Shown here: piece by piece, positions 18,723-41,094 of the stretch | Position numbering within the stretch: position 1 is the first letter of the stretch | Layout of the letters: the number at the start of each line of letters is the position of its first letter | Source of the DNA: Anaerolineales bacterium | GTDB taxonomy: Bacteria; Chloroflexota; Anaerolineae; Anaerolineales; RBG-16-64-43 | Length of the DNA: 61,150 bases | Reading direction: 5' to 3' | NCBI GenBank assembly: GCA_016932475.1 | Contig: JAFGCU010000082.1 | Span: forward strand, 1 to 61,150 | Notes under the pieces: model-generated | What the model saw: only the letters and a program-made list of their open reading frames with translations | The model's database searches: none | Told to the model about the DNA's origin: nothing | Program-made: the position numbers and the translations under genes

Positions 18723-18784
18723 TTTACTCGGGTTATCCAGTCATTATTGCGGCGGATTATCCGTCCGTGTTTTTTGAGGAGATC

Positions 18785-20839
18785 ATGACGCTGGAAAAAG
18801 GGTACTTGCTTTATGGAAGATATCGGATCGACTCGATCCTGGGCCGAGGCGGGATGGGTTCTGTTTACAAATCCCTTGACGAAAACCTCGGCATCCCGGT
18901 CGCCGTCAAGGAAAATCTCTTCACCACGGAAGAGTACGCCCGCCAGTTCCGGCGCGAGGCCACCATTCTGGCCGGCCTGCGCCACTCCAACCTCCCCCGC
19001 GTCACCGATCACTTTGTCATCGCCGGTCAGGGCCAGTACCTGGTCATGGATTATATCGACGGCGATGACCTGCGTTCGCGAATCGATAAAGGAAATCTTC
19101 CCAGCGAACGGCTGACCGTGGATTGGGCGCGGCAAATCTGCGACGCGCTGAACTACCTGCATAACCGGCAGCCGCCGGTTGTGCACCGGGACATAAAACC
19201 GGGCAACATCCGGGTCACATCCGAGGGCCGCGCCGTCCTGGTGGATTTCGGCCTGGCGCGCCTGATGGAAGGGCCGACGACGACGACCGGCGCCAAAGCC
19301 ATGACGCCGGGCTATTCTCCGCCCGAACAATATGGCGCCAGCCGGACCGATTCCCGGACCGATATCTATGCGCTGGCCGCCACACTGTATACGCTGCTGA
19401 CCGGCGCGATGCCCGAAGACGGACTGGAGCGGGCGCTCGGCCAGCGCACGCTGACGCCGATCCGCACCCGGAACCCTAAAATCTCCGCCGGAGTCGCGAC
19501 CGCGATCGAAAAAGCGCTGGAAGTCCTGCCCGAGAACAGGTTCCAACTGATCGGGGATTTCCAGAAGGCACTGGCATCGGCCGTTCCGGCGGCTCCCCCA
19601 ACTTCGACGGTATCCGTCCCGCCGAGGAGCCCGGCGACGGCTGCAGCCGCTGCGCCGCCTCCGCGCGCGGTCCCGCCAAAAGCCAGGAAGGCGGCGGCGC
19701 CTCCGCCGGCCCCGCGCCACAAAGGTTTTCCCTGGGGTTGCGCGCTCAGCGGGTTGTTTGTGTTACTCCTGCTCATCGCCGGGGGTATGCTGTTCGGCAA
19801 CGAGATCCGCGCCCTGCTGCAATCGGTCGTCCAGGGTTCGCCGTCATTGAGCGCGCTTGCCCAGACCCAGACGGCACTTCTACCGGTTTTCACCGTGACC
19901 GCAACCGAGGCCGTTCCACCCACAGCCGCCGTCAGCACCGACACGCCCGAGCCGACGGCCACCGCCACATCCGTCATCACGCCTGCGGGGCGGGCCCGAT
20001 CGATCGCGTTTGCGTCCAACCGCTCGGGGATTCCGCAAATCTATGTCATGGACCTGGACGGCCAGAACCTGCGCCAGCTTACCGACGAACCGGAGGGCGC
20101 CTGCCAGCCGGATTGGTCACCGGACGGCGAGGAACTGATCTTTACCTCGCCCTGCAAGATGCTGAATGACAGCTACGTAAAGACTTCCATCTTCCGGATT
20201 AACGCCGACGGCTCCGGGCGAACCTCGCTGACAAAAGTTCCCGGCGGGGATTCCGATCCGGCCTGGTCGCCGGACGGAAAACGCATCCTCGTCACCTCTC
20301 TGCAGGACGGACGCCAGCACATCTACGTAATGGATTCCAACGGCGATAACCGGGTCCTGATTTCGAGCACAGCCGGCGCGGTCGACTACCAGGCGCGCTG
20401 GGCTCCCGACGGCCAGCGGATCATCTATGTCACCAAAGCCGGAAACCTGCCGATAATATTCACCGGCGCGATCGATCCCAATAACCTGAAGCGTCAGGAA
20501 TTTTCCGCCGTCAGCTACACCACCATGAGCCCGGATTGGTCGATTAACAATTACATCATCTACGTTCTGGGCTCGCGCGGACAGGTGGTCATCTGTCCGG
20601 CGGATGCGCGGTTCACCTGCCCGAAGAACGAATTGACACCCCAGTACCGGGATACGACGGTCGCCCGTTTCTCCCCGGACGGGCAATGGGTCCTGTTCGA
20701 TATGACCGATTCCAAAACCAAGAAAAATTATGACATTTACCTGCTCCCCATTGTCGGCGCCCAGGAACCCCGCCGGCTCACCGCCGACAGTTCCGACGAG
20801 TCGGATCCCGCTTGGAGACCGATTGCCCCGGGATCCTGA
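18785..20839 (+). CDS. Serine/threonine protein kinase with PD40 (TolB-like) propeller
   Basis: The ATG at 18785 has GAGGA five bases upstream; an upstream GTG is rejected. The 684-residue protein starts with a Hanks-type kinase domain: glycine loop LGRGGMGSVY (19-28), catalytic Lys K42, HRD at 134-136 (VVHRDIKPGN), DFG at 154-156, then TPGYSPPEQYG as activation segment. Pro/Ala-rich linker and a transmembrane helix (about 317-338, CALSGLFVLLLLIAGGM) follow, then a Thr-rich stalk and at least four PD40/WD40-like repeats (QPDWSPDGEELIFTS, DPAWSPDGKRILVTS). The kinase is cytoplasmic and the propeller extracellular, the pattern of a receptor kinase. Ligand and substrates are unknown. Confidence 0.93.
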   Translation: MTLEKGYLLYGRYRIDSILGRGGMGSVYKSLDENLGIPVAVKENLFTTEEYARQFRREATILAGLRHSNLPRVTDHFVIAGQGQYLVMDYIDGDDLRSRIDKGNLPSERLTVDWARQICDALNYLHNRQPPVVHRDIKPGNIRVTSEGRAVLVDFGLARLMEGPTTTTGAKAMTPGYSPPEQYGASRTDSRTDIYALAATLYTLLTGAMPEDGLERALGQRTLTPIRTRNPKISAGVATAIEKALEVLPENRFQLIGDFQKALASAVPAAPPTSTVSVPPRSPATAAAAAPPPRAVPPKARKAAAPPPAPRHKGFPWGCALSGLFVLLLLIAGGMLFGNEIRALLQSVVQGSPSLSALAQTQTALLPVFTVTATEAVPPTAAVSTDTPEPTATATSVITPAGRARSIAFASNRSGIPQIYVMDLDGQNLRQLTDEPEGACQPDWSPDGEELIFTSPCKMLNDSYVKTSIFRINADGSGRTSLTKVPGGDSDPAWSPDGKRILVTSLQDGRQHIYVMDSNGDNRVLISSTAGAVDYQARWAPDGQRIIYVTKAGNLPIIFTGAIDPNNLKRQEFSAVSYTTMSPDWSINNYIIYVLGSRGQVVICPADARFTCPKNELTPQYRDTTVARFSPDGQWVLFDMTDSKTKKNYDIYLLPIVGAQEPRRLTADSSDESDPAWRPIAPGS

Positions 20840-21418: not shown

Positions 21419-21546
21419 CGTATGGTTTGCCCCTTGCGCACTTAATGGCCGTTCGGAAACCGAAAAGGGGGAGGGGGTTTTTGGTAGAATAATTGCGGGA
21501 CACAACATCGATCCAGCGCATTCCGCTTACAGGCAAATCGCATTCC

Positions 21547-23640
21547 ATGAAGTCCCCCGGGCGCATGCCAAAAAAACCCCTCGCAGCCATTCTCCTGATT
21601 TTATGGATGCTCTCCGGATGCCGCAACCTTCCGGACGCGGAATCCATTGGCGGCATCCAGGACCGCGCCACAAGTTCGCGGGAAGCCTCCATCCAAACCG
21701 GCGGACCGTCCGGAACGGACACCCCCGCGGTGGATATCCCCTCGGCGGGTATCGGATCGGGTACGCCGCACACGACAACCCGGACAGATTCAAGCGGTGA
21801 TTCCTCGCCGGTGCCAGAAGTGGATTGGCGCTATCTGCCCGTGATGCCCGGGATCAACCAACATGTGTTTGACATTTACCGGGATGGCCAGGCGCAAGGG
21901 CGCAATCCGCTCCATTTTTCAGTCATCGGCGACTGCCAGGCGATCCCCCTGGTTTTTTTGGGCCCCTTCGAACGAGGCGAATTGGAGCCGGACAGTTCTG
22001 AGGGCTACCTGTGGGATGCCATCCGGCAGTTTAAGGGTTCCTTTTCGCGCACGGGGATGGCCGTGCGGGGCGGCTTCAACGCCGCCTCCATCCTGAGTCC
22101 GCTTCAGGCCGACCCGCACTTCTGTCTTTCGGGTGAAACACCGCTTACCTGCGAGTACCGCCTGCATAATCCGTCGATCGTCTTTATCACTCTGGAAACC
22201 TGGCTGGATCCAGAAACCATCGACCGTTACGAGAGCTACCTCCGTCAGATTCTGGATTACGTCATCGCGAAAGGCACCGTTCCCATCCTCATGACCAAGG
22301 CCGATATGGCGGAGATGGGCAACGGAGTCCCCGTCATCAACCCCGCCATCGTCCGTGTCGCCGGCGATTACGACGTCCCGGTGATTAATTTCTGGAGATC
22401 CGCCCAATCCCTCGAGAACGGCGGGATCGATCCGAACCGTGAGGGATTTCATTTGAGCCCGGAAGGGTTCAAACTCAAGAACATCCTGGCGCTTCGGACC
22501 CTGTATAAACTCTGGACCCAGGTTGAGAAGGGGAGCCAGAATCCCGGCGGCACGGATGCTCCGGGAACTCCAACCGTTACTTCCGCCTTAACGGTCACGC
22601 CCGGCTCCCCGGGAAGCCTGGAATTTACAGCACCTGATTGCCAGGGCGGTTGCATCTTTGCGGGCACCGCCATCTCAAACGACGGCGCAGTGACATCGAA
22701 CGGGGTGTTGGCCATCAACTACCCTGCCGGAAAATTGACACAGATCCTGGGTGAAGGATTTGACCTTCAGGATGTCAGCGCGGATGGACAGCGGCTCCTG
22801 GTGAATGATTCCACCGCTCTGTACGAAATAACACTTGGACACGCTTCGACCCGCCTGATCAGTGATTCGTATTTCTCATTTGGCAAGCAGGGCGCCTACT
22901 GGAACGCGGATGACAGCCGGGTCATTTATCTCGACCGGAACGATCCCATTCAAACAGAAACAGGAGATGCAATTGATCTTTTCCCCTCCATGCGCAACGG
23001 GGAGATTTACTTTGAGAGCGGCACCTGCGCCGGGAAGGCGGATTGCCGAACCGGCGGCGTTTACCGCCTCGATGCCAAGAATGCCGTCACCCGCCTGGAG
23101 TCTTACGCAAAAATGGTTTTTTCCCCCGACGGGAAAGTGGCCGCCTTCCTGGATCCCGCCGCGGCCACGCAGGAGAATCATTTTCACATCCCGTATTTGC
23201 TTCTGGAAGCGGTTGATCAGGGCGCCGCGAGCCGTAAATGGATACATTTCCCGGGTGCGGAAGGATTCATGGTCCATCCCGAAGTACGGGAATACGCCTT
23301 CTCTCCGGAGAACGACGAGCTGTTCATTTTGTATGACGTGTACAGCGACTATTATGAACGATCGCTCCGGCTCCAGGCCTATGGATACGACCTCGCGACC
23401 AGAACCCTGTCCGATCTCGGCGAAATGGCCGGGGTCGGCGGGTCGCAAAATCCCCGTTTGGTCTGGTCGCCCCGTGAATCCAAAGTCCTTCTGTTCCTGA
23501 CCGAACAGAATTCCGAAAATCAATATGCATTGAGTATTTACCAGGTGGATCCGGAAAACACCGAAGGCGTGACAGCCTATTCGCAGAAAATCCTGAGCCG
23601 CAGCGATTATTTTTACATAACCAATCTGTTCTGGCGGTAA
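21547..23640 (+). CDS. Lipoprotein with SGNH-hydrolase-like and PD40 propeller domains
   Basis: The ATG at 21547 gives 697 residues with a signal peptide and lipobox WMLSGC, so C25 is the lipidated cysteine. A Thr/Ser/Pro linker runs to about residue 95. Residues about 120-320 resemble the SGNH hydrolase fold, with FSVIGDCQAIP as block I and REGFHLSPEGF near the end as the His block. The expected GDS is GDC here (128-130), so the nucleophile would be Cys130. The C-terminal half has PD40/WD40-like repeats (SRVIYLDRND, KMVFSPDGKVAAFLDP). It probably acts on the cell surface; substrate unknown. TAGAAT at 21485-21490 could be its -10. Confidence 0.78.
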   Translation: MKSPGRMPKKPLAAILLILWMLSGCRNLPDAESIGGIQDRATSSREASIQTGGPSGTDTPAVDIPSAGIGSGTPHTTTRTDSSGDSSPVPEVDWRYLPVMPGINQHVFDIYRDGQAQGRNPLHFSVIGDCQAIPLVFLGPFERGELEPDSSEGYLWDAIRQFKGSFSRTGMAVRGGFNAASILSPLQADPHFCLSGETPLTCEYRLHNPSIVFITLETWLDPETIDRYESYLRQILDYVIAKGTVPILMTKADMAEMGNGVPVINPAIVRVAGDYDVPVINFWRSAQSLENGGIDPNREGFHLSPEGFKLKNILALRTLYKLWTQVEKGSQNPGGTDAPGTPTVTSALTVTPGSPGSLEFTAPDCQGGCIFAGTAISNDGAVTSNGVLAINYPAGKLTQILGEGFDLQDVSADGQRLLVNDSTALYEITLGHASTRLISDSYFSFGKQGAYWNADDSRVIYLDRNDPIQTETGDAIDLFPSMRNGEIYFESGTCAGKADCRTGGVYRLDAKNAVTRLESYAKMVFSPDGKVAAFLDPAAATQENHFHIPYLLLEAVDQGAASRKWIHFPGAEGFMVHPEVREYAFSPENDELFILYDVYSDYYERSLRLQAYGYDLATRTLSDLGEMAGVGGSQNPRLVWSPRESKVLLFLTEQNSENQYALSIYQVDPENTEGVTAYSQKILSRSDYFYITNLFWR

Positions 23641-33762: not shown

Positions 33763-35097
33763 TTGGCCAATCCCGTAACCGTCGCACGATCCGTCGAAAC
33801 GGGCCCCCGCTTCACACCGACCGTCATCACCCGCGTCGAAGATACCGGCCTCTCCTCGCTTTGGCTGCAGGACCTAGCGCTGAAGATTTTCTATTTCCGC
33901 GGCTATATCACCGGCTTCCGCGTGGCTGACCTGATGGCGCTTCCCTTTACCGGGATCGTCGACCAGATTGTCGAGTCTCTCAAGCGCGACAAATTAATCG
34001 AGGTGAAATCCCAAACCGGAATCGGGGACGGGGCTTACCAGTACGCCATTACCAGCCAGGGGATGATTCGGGCGCGCGAAGCGCTGGAGCGCAGCCAGTA
34101 TGCGGGCGCCGCGCCTGTTCCGCTTGCGGATTACAACGCGGCGATCCGCAAGCAGGCCCGCTCGCGGCCGGCCGTGAATTCGCGGGTGATGCACCAATGC
34201 CTGCAGACCCTGACCCTGTCCGAGACAACCTTTTCCCGAATCGGCCCGGCGGTCAACTCCGGCACATCCATTTTCCTCTACGGCCCTCCCGGCAACGGCA
34301 AGACCACCATCGCCCGGGCGATCGGCGACCTGATCCTTCAGGAAGAGATGTACATCCCCTACGCGCTGGATGTGGAAGGCCACGTCGTCAAGTTGTACGA
34401 TTCGGTCAACCACCAACTCGTTCCCGAGGACGACGCTTCCACCAGCCAGGCGGTAAGCTCCATTCAGCGGAGCGCCGGCAAGCGGGATCCGCGCTGGGTG
34501 CGGATCCGCAGGCCGTTCATCATGGTCGGCGGCGAACTGACCCTGGCCGGACTGGACCTGGTGTTCAACGACGTGCAGAAGTATTACGAGGCGCCGTTCC
34601 AGGTGAAAGCCAACGGCGGAATTCTGCTGATCGACGATTTCGGCCGCCAGCAGGTCCGCCCGCGGGATCTCCTCAACCGGTGGATCGTGCCGCTCGAAAA
34701 CCGGATCGATTACCTGACCTTGCATACCGGACAAAAAATCGAGATACCGTTTGACGTGATGGTAGTCTTCTCGACCAACCTGCCGCCCAAGGACCTCGTC
34801 GACGAAGCGTTCCTGCGCCGCCTACGGCACAAGATCGAAGTCGTGGACCCCACCTTCGACGAGTACCGCGAAATCTTCAAACGCGTGGCCGAATCGAAAC
34901 ATGTCACGTACAACGAACAGGCGCTGGCGTACCTGATTCAGGAGTTTTACATCAAAACCAACCGCAAACCGCGCGCTTCGCATCCGCGCGACCTGTGCGA
35001 CCAGATTCTCGACATCGGGCGGTATATGGGAAGCGAACCCACCATGACCAAGGACCTGATCGACCGCGCGGCGCAGTCGTATTTTGTCGAACTCTAG
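33763..35097 (+). CDS. AAA+ ATPase with N-terminal winged-helix region
   Basis: The start is a TTG at 33763 with GGAGGT six bases upstream; no ATG fits better. The 444-residue product has a winged-helix-like N-terminus (about 30-110), then an AAA+ core: Walker A YGPPGNGKTT with K180, Walker B ILLIDDFG, sensor 1 FSTNLPP and an arginine in EAFLRRLRHK. A C-terminal lid of about 90 residues follows. It resembles MoxR/AAA-type ATPases of unknown partner. It has its own promoter and is followed by a terminator, so it stands alone. No pilus or transport gene touches it. Confidence 0.85.
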   Translation: MANPVTVARSVETGPRFTPTVITRVEDTGLSSLWLQDLALKIFYFRGYITGFRVADLMALPFTGIVDQIVESLKRDKLIEVKSQTGIGDGAYQYAITSQGMIRAREALERSQYAGAAPVPLADYNAAIRKQARSRPAVNSRVMHQCLQTLTLSETTFSRIGPAVNSGTSIFLYGPPGNGKTTIARAIGDLILQEEMYIPYALDVEGHVVKLYDSVNHQLVPEDDASTSQAVSSIQRSAGKRDPRWVRIRRPFIMVGGELTLAGLDLVFNDVQKYYEAPFQVKANGGILLIDDFGRQQVRPRDLLNRWIVPLENRIDYLTLHTGQKIEIPFDVMVVFSTNLPPKDLVDEAFLRRLRHKIEVVDPTFDEYREIFKRVAESKHVTYNEQALAYLIQEFYIKTNRKPRASHPRDLCDQILDIGRYMGSEPTMTKDLIDRAAQSYFVEL

Positions 35098-37167: not shown

Positions 37168-40100
37168 ATGACGGAAATTGCATTACGGGCATACAACCAG
37201 GAGATCAAGGACCTCATCGATCACGGGCATTTCGATGAGGCGATTGCGCACTGCCAGCATGTCCTGGAGACCTTTCCCCGACACATCGAAACGTACCGTC
37301 TGCTCGGAAAAGCCTTTCTCGAGCAGGGACGCCACGGCGACGCCGCGGACGTGTTCCAGCGGGTGCTTTCCGCCATTCCCGAGGATTGGCTTTCGCACGT
37401 GGCGATGGCCATCGTCCGCGAGGATGAAAGCAACCTGGACATGGCCATCTGGCATATGGAGCGGGCGTACGAGGTCAATCCCTCGAACCCCACGGTTCAG
37501 CAGGAAGTACGCCGGTTGCGAGGCCGGCGGGATGGCGTGGAACCCCCAAAACTACGTCTGACGCGGTCCGCCCTGGCGCGGATGTACATCAAGGGCGGCT
37601 TGTATGGGCAGGCCATCGCGGAAATCCGAAGCGCCCTGACCGAGGATCCGGACAGGCCGGATTTGCAGGTTCTGCTGGCGTCTGCGCTGTTCGATTCCGG
37701 CGCCGTCCAGGAATCCGCCGATATTTGCACGGCCATCCTGCAAAAGTTGCCGTACTGTCTGGAAGCCAACCGCGTCATGGGCATGGCTCTGCTGGCTTCG
37801 AACAAGCATGAAGACGCGGAAAAGCTTTTCCAAAGGATCGAATCGCTGGATCCGCATATCGATCTGGAAGTTCTGAAAAAGGAAAAACGGATCGCGGAGC
37901 TCCCGGGGCAGACTGTTTCGCTTTCCCGGCTGGAATACGAGGGGCAGGAAAAGACCGTACGGACCAAGCAGCCTTCCTGGGCGTCCTCGCTGGGGCTGAA
38001 GATAGAAGAGCCGCAAAAGGGTCCAGCCATTCCGGATTGGCTGTCTACCGCCTCTCAGCCGGCGGATGCATTCCCGCCGGCGGCGCAGCCCGCCGCACCG
38101 GCCGCGCCCACCGGAGATATTCCCGCCTGGCTTAATGAAGCCGCAGCCGCGGTCAATCAACCCTCGGCGGGGGGATCGATCTTCGGAACACCCGCCGAAC
38201 CGCCTCCCCCCTCCGCTGCGGAACCGATCCCGCGGACCTCGACGGGCGAGCTTCCGGATTGGATCCAGGCTCAGGCGATGCCGGCCGAACCGCCTGTTGC
38301 GGAAAAATCCTCCGGCTCGCTTCCGGATTGGCTGTCCGCGGCGGCCGCGATTCCTTTCCAACAACCCGCGGCGGAAATGCCTGGCCCATCCGCGCCGGCA
38401 GCGTCGCCGACAACCGGAAGCGCGCTACCGGACTGGATCAAAACATCGTCCCTACCGCCCGACAAGCCCAAGGAAAAAATTTCCGATATACCGGATTGGC
38501 TTTCCGCTCCTCCTCCGCCTTCGGTGGAAGCGCTGCCTTCTTCGTCCCTGCCGGAATGGACCAGACCCGAGACGAAAACGTCTCCCTTGGGCGTGGAACC
38601 AAACAATATCCCCGATTGGCTGAGTTCATCGCAACCCACCAGCGCCGATATCAGCCCGGAACCGGAATGGTTGAAGCAGTCTCCGGCCCCCGCGCCGGGC
38701 GCGGATGCCATACCGGAATGGATGAAGGGTGCGGGTCCGGCGGAATCGTCTCCGGACGCCCAACCCGCGGAAAGCATGCCCAGCTGGCTGCAATCGAGTG
38801 CCGACCCCGCATCCAAACCGGTCGAGCTCGTTCCCGAATGGATGCGGACCGAATCTCCTCCGTCCGCGAGCGCCGGATCCGTGCAGCCGTCTCCTCCGTC
38901 CGCGCCGATCGAGGATCTGCCGGAATGGATGAAACCGGATCAAAACGAAGCGCCGATTTCTTTTCCATCCTCCGAGCCTGTCCTCGGAGGGAAAAAGAGC
39001 ACCTCACCCCTGGCGGAGGAATCGCCGGCCGTTCCGGAAGGGGCTGTACCGGATTGGATGAAGCCGCCGGAGACCGCGCCGGCTGCGCCCTTGGCGGCGG
39101 CTGCGGAATCCGTTCCGGAATCGAACAAACCCGATTTGAGGAATCCTCCAACCGAAGCCGCAGCGGAAGTGGAAGCACGCTCCGTGGAAGCAGCGCCTGC
39201 AGTCACCCTTCCCGACTGGTTGAATCCTCCCGCCGGACTCGCATCTCCGGAGGCCGTGGAAGGGGCGCCATCTATGGCTGTGCCTCCACCGGCTGGGATC
39301 GCATCCACGCCGGATGTGCCGTTTTCGAGAGAAGCCGAACCGGCACCGGTGGTCGAGCTCCCGGATTGGCTTAAAGCAGTCCCGCCGCCTGCTGCCGAAC
39401 CGGCACAGGTTGCTCCGCCGGCGATTGAGGCGGCCGCCGAGTCCCCAGCGGATTCACTTCCCATAAGCGAACTTCCGGATTGGCTTAAGGGTGGACCTGC
39501 GCAAACGCCGCCGATGCAGGAAAGGACTGCTTCACCCGCGCCTCCACCGGAAAGAACCGAACCCGCGCAACCGCCAATCAAGGCTTCTGACCTATTCACA
39601 TCCGAGCCGGGCCCGACGCATGTCACGCCGACCGCAAGCGATGGGGTTGATCTTCCCGATTGGCTTGTGTCCCAGATTCAGGGAAAACCGGCGGACGCTG
39701 CCGCCGCCGCACCCGCACCCGCCCAAACCGCCGGACCGCTTCCCGATTGGCTGAAACCGGCGACTCCCGGTGCAACGCCGGCTCCGGTTGTGGATTGGGA
39801 TAAAGCCGCCAGTCAACCCATTCCACCCGCGCCGGTCGATGCCACCCGTCCGGCAACCGGGCTCTCCTCGAGCGGATCGGCCGGAGGAGCCTCGGAAACA
39901 CCGGGCGCCTTAAAACCGACCGGCAGCGACACGGTTGCGCGCTGGCTGGACCGCCGTTTAAAGACTTCCACTTTGAGCTCCCTCGATGAGTCGGCTCTGA
40001 AAGCCGGGGTCAAGCCTTCCACTCCGCCGCCGACCGGCAAACCGGGAAGCAGCGGCACGCAGTTGCCGACCTGGTTGGATTCGCAGAAACCGGGCGGGTC

Positions 40101-41094
40101 TGACACGGTTGTTCGATGGATGGATAAACGAGAGACCGGATCTCTGCGAAAGGTGACGGCCTCCTTCTCCTCGGTTTCACGAAGTGCCGTGCCCGCGCCT
40201 GAGGAGCAGGCGGCCTCCGCACCGCCCGCACCCGCTGCTGCAGCCCCCCTTGCAGGGATCCAAGCGGAGGAAAACACCACACCGAGCCGGATTCCGGTTC
40301 AGGCCGCACCGCCGGTGCAACCTGCCGCCGAAGCACCGGCGCCGGTCTTACCGAAGCGGGAAACGCCGCCTGCATCAAAACCGCCCGAAGTTGTGATCAG
40401 CAATCCGCCAATTGCACCCGTGACCCAAGCCTCAGCTCCGGTCCCGGCCGAGGATGACGAAGAGGGCGCCTTCGTGCCTCCGCCCGAATGGCTGCAAAAA
40501 GCATTGGGAAGCGCCGTCGCGGAAGTTCCCCCGATCCCCAAAAAGCAAACCGGAGGACTTCGGCCGGGAACCGTCACGCCGGTTTCATCCCCGGCGTATG
40601 CCAAACCTGCGCCTCCCGTTCCCGCGCCGCAGCCCGCCGTCCCGGCAGTCCCGGCCCCGGTGGAACCCCCGGCGCCCGTTATTCGGCAAAGAGCCATACC
40701 GGTGGACGAACCGCCGCCATCCCCTTCGGCGGAACCCGGCACATGGGTGCCGGTTGCGCCGGTCCCGGCATCAGCCCCGGCCGCAAAACCGGAGAAGCCT
40801 GCGAAGAAACCTTCCCGCAAGAAAGCCCGCAAGCTGACCGACGTCGAAACCGAGGTGCTTATCCGGGAGGCGCGGGTGTATCTGGAAACCGACCTGCAAA
40901 AAGCAACCGAGGCGTATCAGCAGGTCATCGACGATCCATCCAGCGCGGAGGTAGTCGCCGGCGATCTGACGACCTATCTGGAGCAGGATCCTGCTTCTCC
41001 GCAGCTGTGGAATCTCCTCGGGGACGCCTGCAGCCGCGCCGGCCGCCTTCAAGACGCTTACCGAGCTTATGCGGAAGCCCTGCGCAGGATGTAG
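37168..41094 (+). CDS. Large TPR protein with repeated (L/I)P(D/E)W(L/M) motifs
   Basis: The 1308-residue protein starts at an ATG with only a weak Shine-Dalgarno site. Residues about 1-240 contain TPR-like helices (LIDHGHFDEAIAHCQHVLE, ALARMYIKGGLYGQAIAEI). Residues about 288-1110 are Pro/Ala/Ser-rich and low-complexity, with about 21 short motifs such as IPDWLS, LPDWLK, VPEWMR and LPEWMK. Two related blocks, GSDTVARWLDRR (near 920) and GSDTVVRWMDKR (near 979), are also repeated. A basic patch (KPSRKKARK) and a final helical TPR-like segment (DLTTYLEQDPASPQLWNLLG) end it. No signal peptide or membrane helix is visible, so it is cytoplasmic. It may be a scaffold with multivalent short motifs. 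The function is unknown. Confidence 0.8.
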   Translation: MTEIALRAYNQEIKDLIDHGHFDEAIAHCQHVLETFPRHIETYRLLGKAFLEQGRHGDAADVFQRVLSAIPEDWLSHVAMAIVREDESNLDMAIWHMERAYEVNPSNPTVQQEVRRLRGRRDGVEPPKLRLTRSALARMYIKGGLYGQAIAEIRSALTEDPDRPDLQVLLASALFDSGAVQESADICTAILQKLPYCLEANRVMGMALLASNKHEDAEKLFQRIESLDPHIDLEVLKKEKRIAELPGQTVSLSRLEYEGQEKTVRTKQPSWASSLGLKIEEPQKGPAIPDWLSTASQPADAFPPAAQPAAPAAPTGDIPAWLNEAAAAVNQPSAGGSIFGTPAEPPPPSAAEPIPRTSTGELPDWIQAQAMPAEPPVAEKSSGSLPDWLSAAAAIPFQQPAAEMPGPSAPAASPTTGSALPDWIKTSSLPPDKPKEKISDIPDWLSAPPPPSVEALPSSSLPEWTRPETKTSPLGVEPNNIPDWLSSSQPTSADISPEPEWLKQSPAPAPGADAIPEWMKGAGPAESSPDAQPAESMPSWLQSSADPASKPVELVPEWMRTESPPSASAGSVQPSPPSAPIEDLPEWMKPDQNEAPISFPSSEPVLGGKKSTSPLAEESPAVPEGAVPDWMKPPETAPAAPLAAAAESVPESNKPDLRNPPTEAAAEVEARSVEAAPAVTLPDWLNPPAGLASPEAVEGAPSMAVPPPAGIASTPDVPFSREAEPAPVVELPDWLKAVPPPAAEPAQVAPPAIEAAAESPADSLPISELPDWLKGGPAQTPPMQERTASPAPPPERTEPAQPPIKASDLFTSEPGPTHVTPTASDGVDLPDWLVSQIQGKPADAAAAAPAPAQTAGPLPDWLKPATPGATPAPVVDWDKAASQPIPPAPVDATRPATGLSSSGSAGGASETPGALKPTGSDTVARWLDRRLKTSTLSSLDESALKAGVKPSTPPPTGKPGSSGTQLPTWLDSQKPGGSDTVVRWMDKRETGSLRKVTASFSSVSRSAVPAPEEQAASAPPAPAAAAPLAGIQAEENTTPSRIPVQAAPPVQPAAEAPAPVLPKRETPPASKPPEVVISNPPIAPVTQASAPVPAEDDEEGAFVPPPEWLQKALGSAVAEVPPIPKKQTGGLRPGTVTPVSSPAYAKPAPPVPAPQPAVPAVPAPVEPPAPVIRQRAIPVDEPPPSPSAEPGTWVPVAPVPASAPAAKPEKPAKKPSRKKARKLTDVETEVLIREARVYLETDLQKATEAYQQVIDDPSSAEVVAGDLTTYLEQDPASPQLWNLLGDACSRAGRLQDAYRAYAEALRRM

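Follow-up and report, generated by a model that had tools for sequence, protein, structure and literature searches.

A conserved tetratricopeptide repeat protein with a motif-bearing disordered linker, a candidate multivalent scaffold of Anaerolineales

The subject of this study is a gene at positions 37168-41094 of the forward strand in a 61,150-nucleotide stretch of DNA from an Anaerolineales bacterium (contig JAFGCU010000082.1; hereafter the window, meaning this whole stretch). The gene is an uninterrupted open reading frame (ORF) of 1308 amino acids with an ATG start and no internal stop, and it encodes a tetratricopeptide repeat (TPR) protein, as an earlier sequence-only reading of the window had proposed. 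Two folded ends are joined by a long linker that carries short tryptophan-containing motifs. The parts of the gene are listed below with the evidence that defines them; the five-residue entries come from our motif list and are numbered by residue.

37168..41094, + strand, whole gene, TPR / Trp-motif linker / TPR protein of 1308 amino acids (ORF, orthologues)
37168..37953, + strand, N-terminal TPR solenoid, residues 1-262 (Pfam, alignment, AlphaFold2, PDB fold match)
37963..40662, + strand, Pro/Ala-rich linker bearing the motifs, predicted disordered, residues 266-1165 (motif count, AlphaFold2, conservation)
38029..38043, + strand, IPDWL (288)
38119..38133, + strand, IPAWL (318), at about the place of a position-conserved motif in most orthologues
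38251..38265, + strand, LPDWI (362)
38320..38334, + strand, LPDWL (385)
38425..38439, + strand, LPDWI (420)
38488..38502, + strand, IPDWL (441)
38548..38562, + strand, LPEWT (461)
38608..38622, + strand, IPDWL (481)
38659..38673, + strand, EPEWL (498), degenerate
38710..38724, + strand, IPEWM (515)
38776..38790, + strand, MPSWL (537)
38830..38844, + strand, VPEWM (555)
38917..38931, + strand, LPEWM (584)
39046..39060, + strand, VPDWM (627)
39208..39222, + strand, LPDWL (681)
39358..39372, + strand, LPDWL (731)
39472..39486, + strand, LPDWL (769)
39652..39666, + strand, LPDWL (829)
39739..39753, + strand, LPDWL (858)
39934..39948, + strand, VARWL (923), degenerate site
40063..40077, + strand, LPTWL (966)
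40480..40494, + strand, PPEWL (1105), degenerate
40810..41094, + strand, C-terminal TPR-like domain plus stop codon, residues 1215-1308 (Pfam TPR_2, conserved C-termini)

Pfam TPR families (TPR_19, TPR_2 and others) scored above cut-off at the folded ends, and an AlphaFold2 model of residues 1-480 gave a helical N-terminal TPR domain with a predicted local distance difference test score (pLDDT) of about 97, whose PDB fold matches were TPR proteins, PEX5 among them; on these grounds we class the protein as a TPR-repeat protein. The C-terminal end had been described as a short helical segment, but it is more than a short helix: TPR_2 matched residues 1279-1306, the last 90 or so residues are TPR-like, and in orthologues the domain terminates in a conserved LWxxLGDAxxRxxRLxxAxxAYxxAL signature. 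The linker of about 900 residues is the low-complexity Pro/Ala chain that had been claimed (its 895 amino acids include 181 P and 150 A), and within the modeled region its pLDDT was mostly below 60, as disorder would give. All NCBIfam matches fell far under cut-off, and neither Pfam nor NCBIfam describes the linker or the motif, generic TPRs being all that these libraries return, which agrees with the earlier view that no described family accounts for the protein. Literature searches on the motif string, the TPR-protein family and DUF6754 (a neighbor of a second motif carrier, below) found nothing relevant, and PLSDB returned no plasmid match. The TPR/Trp-motif protein is real, conserved and undescribed in the libraries and literature covered.

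Strict matches to [LIV]P[DE]W[LM] number 13 in the linker, against 0.0045 expected from shuffling, and when relaxed residues are allowed the list grows to about 20-22 sites. The sequence-only count of about 21 therefore holds provided that variants of the IPAWL, LPDWI, EPEWL and PPEWL type are included, while the roughly regular intervals reported with it do not: spacing runs irregularly from 17 to 65 amino acids and then jumps to 139. A PEDWL at residue 71 sits in a TPR helix and is not counted with the linker set. AlphaFold2 placed short helices at several linker motifs, and a linker helix at residues 320-329 had a pLDDT of about 72. TRF detected no tandem repeats at the DNA level here, so the motifs did not arise by recent microsatellite-like expansion.

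We followed the protein through its relatives by means of the N-terminal TPR domain, which is matched in 37 of the 41 relatives, nearly always once per genome. In the named genome collection it matched at 332 loci, of which 80 were kept; these bear titles of Anaerolineae, Anaerolineales, Chloroflexi or related, with the cultivated Anaerolinea thermolimosa and Bellilinea caldifistulae among them. The domain is mostly 45-55% identical across the order, with 22 invariant residues in an alignment of 33 orthologues. The three-part plan is retained, and the 80 orthologues hold 470 strict motifs, compared with 1.2 in shuffles, an enrichment of about 400-fold. When three close relatives are compared, identity is 85% in the motif 5-mers, close to the N-terminal TPR domain (84%) and above the C-terminal domain (74%), but only 31% in the linker outside the motifs. 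By these comparisons, the motifs are under purifying selection and the remaining linker drifts. Conservation of motif sequence and spacing in orthologues had been chosen beforehand as the point on which the sequence-only reading could fail: the motif sequence is conserved, and the spacing and number (2-26 copies) vary.

Across orthologues the motif reads E-(E/D)-(L/I/V)-P-(D/E)-W-(L/M)-(K/R/S/Q)-(E/G/D)-(L/I/A), and its flanks are acidic, with E/D in 62% at position -1 and D/E in 75% at +2. In a substitution test on the TPR-protein linkers, tryptophan (W) occupied the aromatic position 914 times versus 7.4 expected and phenylalanine (F) 44 times versus 3.0, with all other residues around or under expectation. 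Near the linker start lies one motif that keeps its place, (E/D)IP(D/E)(W/F)(M/L)(R/K)(E/D)AGW, in 92 of 113 sequences (a set in which certain genomes are represented twice); it carries W in 63 and F in 29, as in EIPDFLREAGW. The window's IPAWL (318) lies at about the same place and is matched to it by position only, the AGW part being missing in the window's own family.

Two further observations concern these linkers. An HHH_3 helix-hairpin-helix domain lies in the linker, near the C-terminus, in 8 of the 113 sequences (L042, L051, L065, L141, L157, L161, L194 and L210; in L042 at residues 939-999, Pfam E 4e-12) and may bind nucleic acid. Outside the class, the TPR orthologues L248 (G161), L247 (G137) and L244 (G313) carry PFS(L/F)EELGLSxEEIAxLE repeats, not PxW(L/M).

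A whole-genome pattern search found one other gene that holds several motifs together. Its product has no sequence relationship to the TPR protein: Pfam Zn_Ribbon_1 is followed by 8-9 PxW(L/M) motifs and then, as we infer, by two transmembrane (TM) helices with a Rossmann-like alpha/beta domain between them. At an E threshold of 0.001 this domain matched nothing in the PDB. Orthologues of this zinc-ribbon protein occur in 37 of 41 relatives, and the motif was present in 30 of the 30 inspected. Within the order each has 3-13 motifs, and in more distant Chloroflexota the number reaches about 60, of the DVPAWLRAE type (e.g., DVPAWLR, DLPAWLR). Tryptophan dominates here as well, with 102 versus 0.5 expected in one set and 211 versus 1.0 in another, and with W:F ratios of 102:1 and 211:0. 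A scan for motif pairs in three whole genomes found clusters solely in the TPR and zinc-ribbon genes, apart from one tRNA-like false match. The zinc-ribbon gene belongs to a cluster that is conserved at 19-21 of 21 loci. In Anaerolineales this cluster (L101:881-8822, G000:C52) encodes a DUF6754 protein, a small TM protein, the zinc-ribbon protein, another TM protein, a protein of the MutL family and a 352-amino-acid protein with a marginal KOW match.

The two carriers are distributed together across the phylum. Of 300 Chloroflexota genomes, 110 have the TPR protein and 78 have the C-terminal domain of the zinc-ribbon protein; 65 have both, 45 the TPR protein only, 13 the zinc-ribbon protein only and 177 neither (Fisher p 3e-23, phylogeny ignored). 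Of 11 zinc-ribbon proteins from genomes in which no TPR protein was detected, 10 have 0-2 PxW motifs; the exception, from G084, has 5, and there the absence may be an assembly gap. In TPR-positive genomes the number ranges from 0 to 63 and is mostly at least 3 (Mann-Whitney 7.5e-6, phylogeny ignored). Both the motif-count trend and the co-distribution depend on few clades.

The conserved motifs sit in a drifting, disordered tether and recur in a membrane protein of unrelated sequence, a combination best accounted for if both proteins dock with avidity on one common receptor, and we think it probable that the TPR protein is a cytosolic multivalent scaffold or adaptor whose motifs dock on a receptor common to the zinc-ribbon protein. 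The idea of multivalent binding to one partner came from the sequence-only reading; its multivalent half is now strongly supported by motif conservation and by the second carrier, while a single partner is our reading of the same sequence data. Each motif would form a short amphipathic helix on binding, capped by the acidic residue and proline, and its L/I, W, L and the residue three further on would form one face, which would dock in a hydrophobic pocket on a single receptor. Weak individually, the many copies would give avidity, spacing would be irrelevant and copy number would thus be free to drift. A common receptor would colocalize the TPR scaffold with the membrane-anchored zinc-ribbon protein, and the N-terminal TPR domain might bind a further client or be the receptor itself. 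Candidate receptors are the family's own TPR domain and the receptors of the FtsZ C-terminal peptide (FtsA/SepF).

Several results weigh against the shared-receptor scaffold. In families f33, f43, f66 and f68 the TPR orthologues keep their architecture, yet the linkers inspected have no PxW(L/M), and several carry a replacement repeat, PFSLEELGLSxEEIAxLE, so the TPR protein does not need the Trp motif in every lineage. Part of the co-occurrence of the two carriers is owed to shared ancestry. In addition, the motif-pair scan covered only three genomes and used a degenerate DNA pattern, so that carriers with a single copy or a divergent motif would have escaped it.

One possible, though doubtful, explanation is that the family's own N-terminal TPR domain is the receptor, binding PxW(L/M) in cis or in trans and so building a self-associating network tethered to the zinc-ribbon membrane protein. 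The presence of the TPR protein tracks motif-rich zinc-ribbon proteins, the domain is conserved across the order, and where the TPR linker lacks the motif the zinc-ribbon protein is still motif-rich and the N-terminal TPR domain is kept. However, the model of residues 1-480, which contained both TPR domain and linker, did not show confident docking in cis as judged by pLDDT, and the canonical concave-groove positions showed no significant excess of conservation over the other exposed residues (p 0.10). The restriction of the motif-count trend to few clades also tells against this explanation, as do three zinc-ribbon proteins that have no motif and whose genomes are TPR-positive or untested.

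We consider it unlikely that the motif mimics the FtsZ C-terminal peptide, binding FtsA, SepF or a Chloroflexota-specific receptor, which would make the protein a scaffold for division or the cytoskeleton. FtsZ is held at the membrane by FtsA and SepF, both of which bind this peptide (PMC8187382), and ftsA is present in this genome, adjoining ftsZ. The genome's own FtsZ tails, ELPAFLRL and EIPAFLRQ, and those of Chloroflexota generally, (D/E)(I/V)P(A/T)FLR, resemble the motif in a core of the form (D/E)(I/L/V)Px(aromatic)L(R/K). In the 113 sequences, cores of the F type, (D/E)(I/L/V)PxFL(R/K), number 22 and those of the W type 255. The F variant at the position-conserved linker motif (29 of 92) fits this core, F is the only residue besides W that is clearly enriched at the aromatic position of the TPR linkers, and the zinc-ribbon motifs of distant Chloroflexota approach the same form with DVPAWLR and DLPAWLR. 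Against mimicry, W prevails in the motif (914 versus 44 F), whereas F occupies this position in 17 of 17 recognizable FtsZ tails, and the zinc-ribbon motifs are in effect W only. After the core, FtsZ tails are basic while the motifs are acidic or small, the gene has no division-gene neighborhood at the 80 loci, and a short motif of this kind could arise by convergence. In the TPR protein the motifs are internal and repeated instead of C-terminal, and Pfam finds no FtsZ/tubulin domain. As an observation on its own, the genome has two ftsZ genes (G000:C116 and G000:C101; L097, L098 and L002), one directly after ftsA and the second a few kb from a TPR ORF of about 1800 amino acids.

It is quite improbable that the linker is a multivalent membrane tether, with motifs that act as amphipathic helices and attach to the membrane themselves. 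The hydrophobic L/I-W-L face would suit such binding, and PEX5 Trp-motif helices bind membranes in vitro (PMC8086558). Direct membrane binding is made less likely by the strongly acidic flanks, which are unfavorable at anionic membranes; the near-invariant P and D/E would be unnecessary for it, and the zinc-ribbon carrier is equipped with TM helices anyway. That the linker is a mere low-complexity spacer with the motif as a compositional by-product, which its variable length, its 2-26 copies and the near-identical tandem copies in some orthologues might suggest, is already contradicted by the enrichment over shuffles, the aromatic-position counts, a motif conservation like that of a folded domain and the recurrence in a second family.

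In design the nearest analogue is PEX5, which joins a TPR domain to a long disordered segment of many short Trp helices; its WxxxF/Y motifs bind membrane-associated PEX14 (PMC8086558). The motif here is PxW(L/M), with L/A/I four residues after W, so it does not conform to WxxxF/Y. TPRs stand at both ends of what is a bacterial cytosolic protein, neither PTS1-type cargo nor a PEX14-like partner is known for it, and the PEX5 fold match is a generic TPR one, the sequences of the two proteins being related in no other respect. The TPR/Trp-motif protein is a member of neither the FtsZ nor the PEX5 family. Its folded ends resemble those of generic bacterial TPR proteins (Pfam TPR_19, TPR_2), which do not cover the linker and motif. 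Epsin, with its DPW motifs, and GW182, with its GW repeats, are multi-Trp disordered scaffolds that likewise gain avidity from many short Trp motifs on a disordered chain, but they are eukaryotic, use other motifs and have no TPR.

The run of GT-C membrane-protein genes beside the gene had been offered as a hint to function. It was found in the window's own family only, so a conserved association with GT-C genes failed to appear; we regard the neighborhood as uninformative on function and rejected a GT-C or envelope-glycan role drawn from it. Elsewhere the gene lies upstream of an ndk-like gene (56 of 80 loci), and at 37 of 80 rsfS lies nearby on the other strand (names assigned by eye from the sequences), and neither neighbor yields a firm functional clue. 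Other features of the window include an AAA ATPase (33763-35097) upstream of the GT-C gene, unusually conserved at 91-93% identity within the family compared with 54-60% for the adjacent GT-C gene; a Ser/Thr protein kinase domain fused with a PD40/WD40-like beta-propeller (18767-20839); and a 715-amino-acid ORF (21493-23640) with no Pfam match at E 0.001.

Multi-copy short-motif scaffolds are familiar in eukaryotes and little described in bacteria, and the Chloroflexota are a large, little-studied phylum. We put forward, speculatively, that a Chloroflexota-specific Trp form of the FtsZ C-terminal peptide might serve as a general docking code, with the cytosolic TPR scaffold and the zinc-ribbon membrane protein presenting as many as dozens of copies and so collecting FtsA/SepF-like receptors, or else the TPR domain itself, in an assembly tied to division or the envelope. 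If this were true, an assembly of this type built on a Trp docking code would be one not described in other bacteria. An order-wide docking code that two unrelated proteins share, and that some species repeat dozens of times, would offer a handle on Chloroflexota cell biology.

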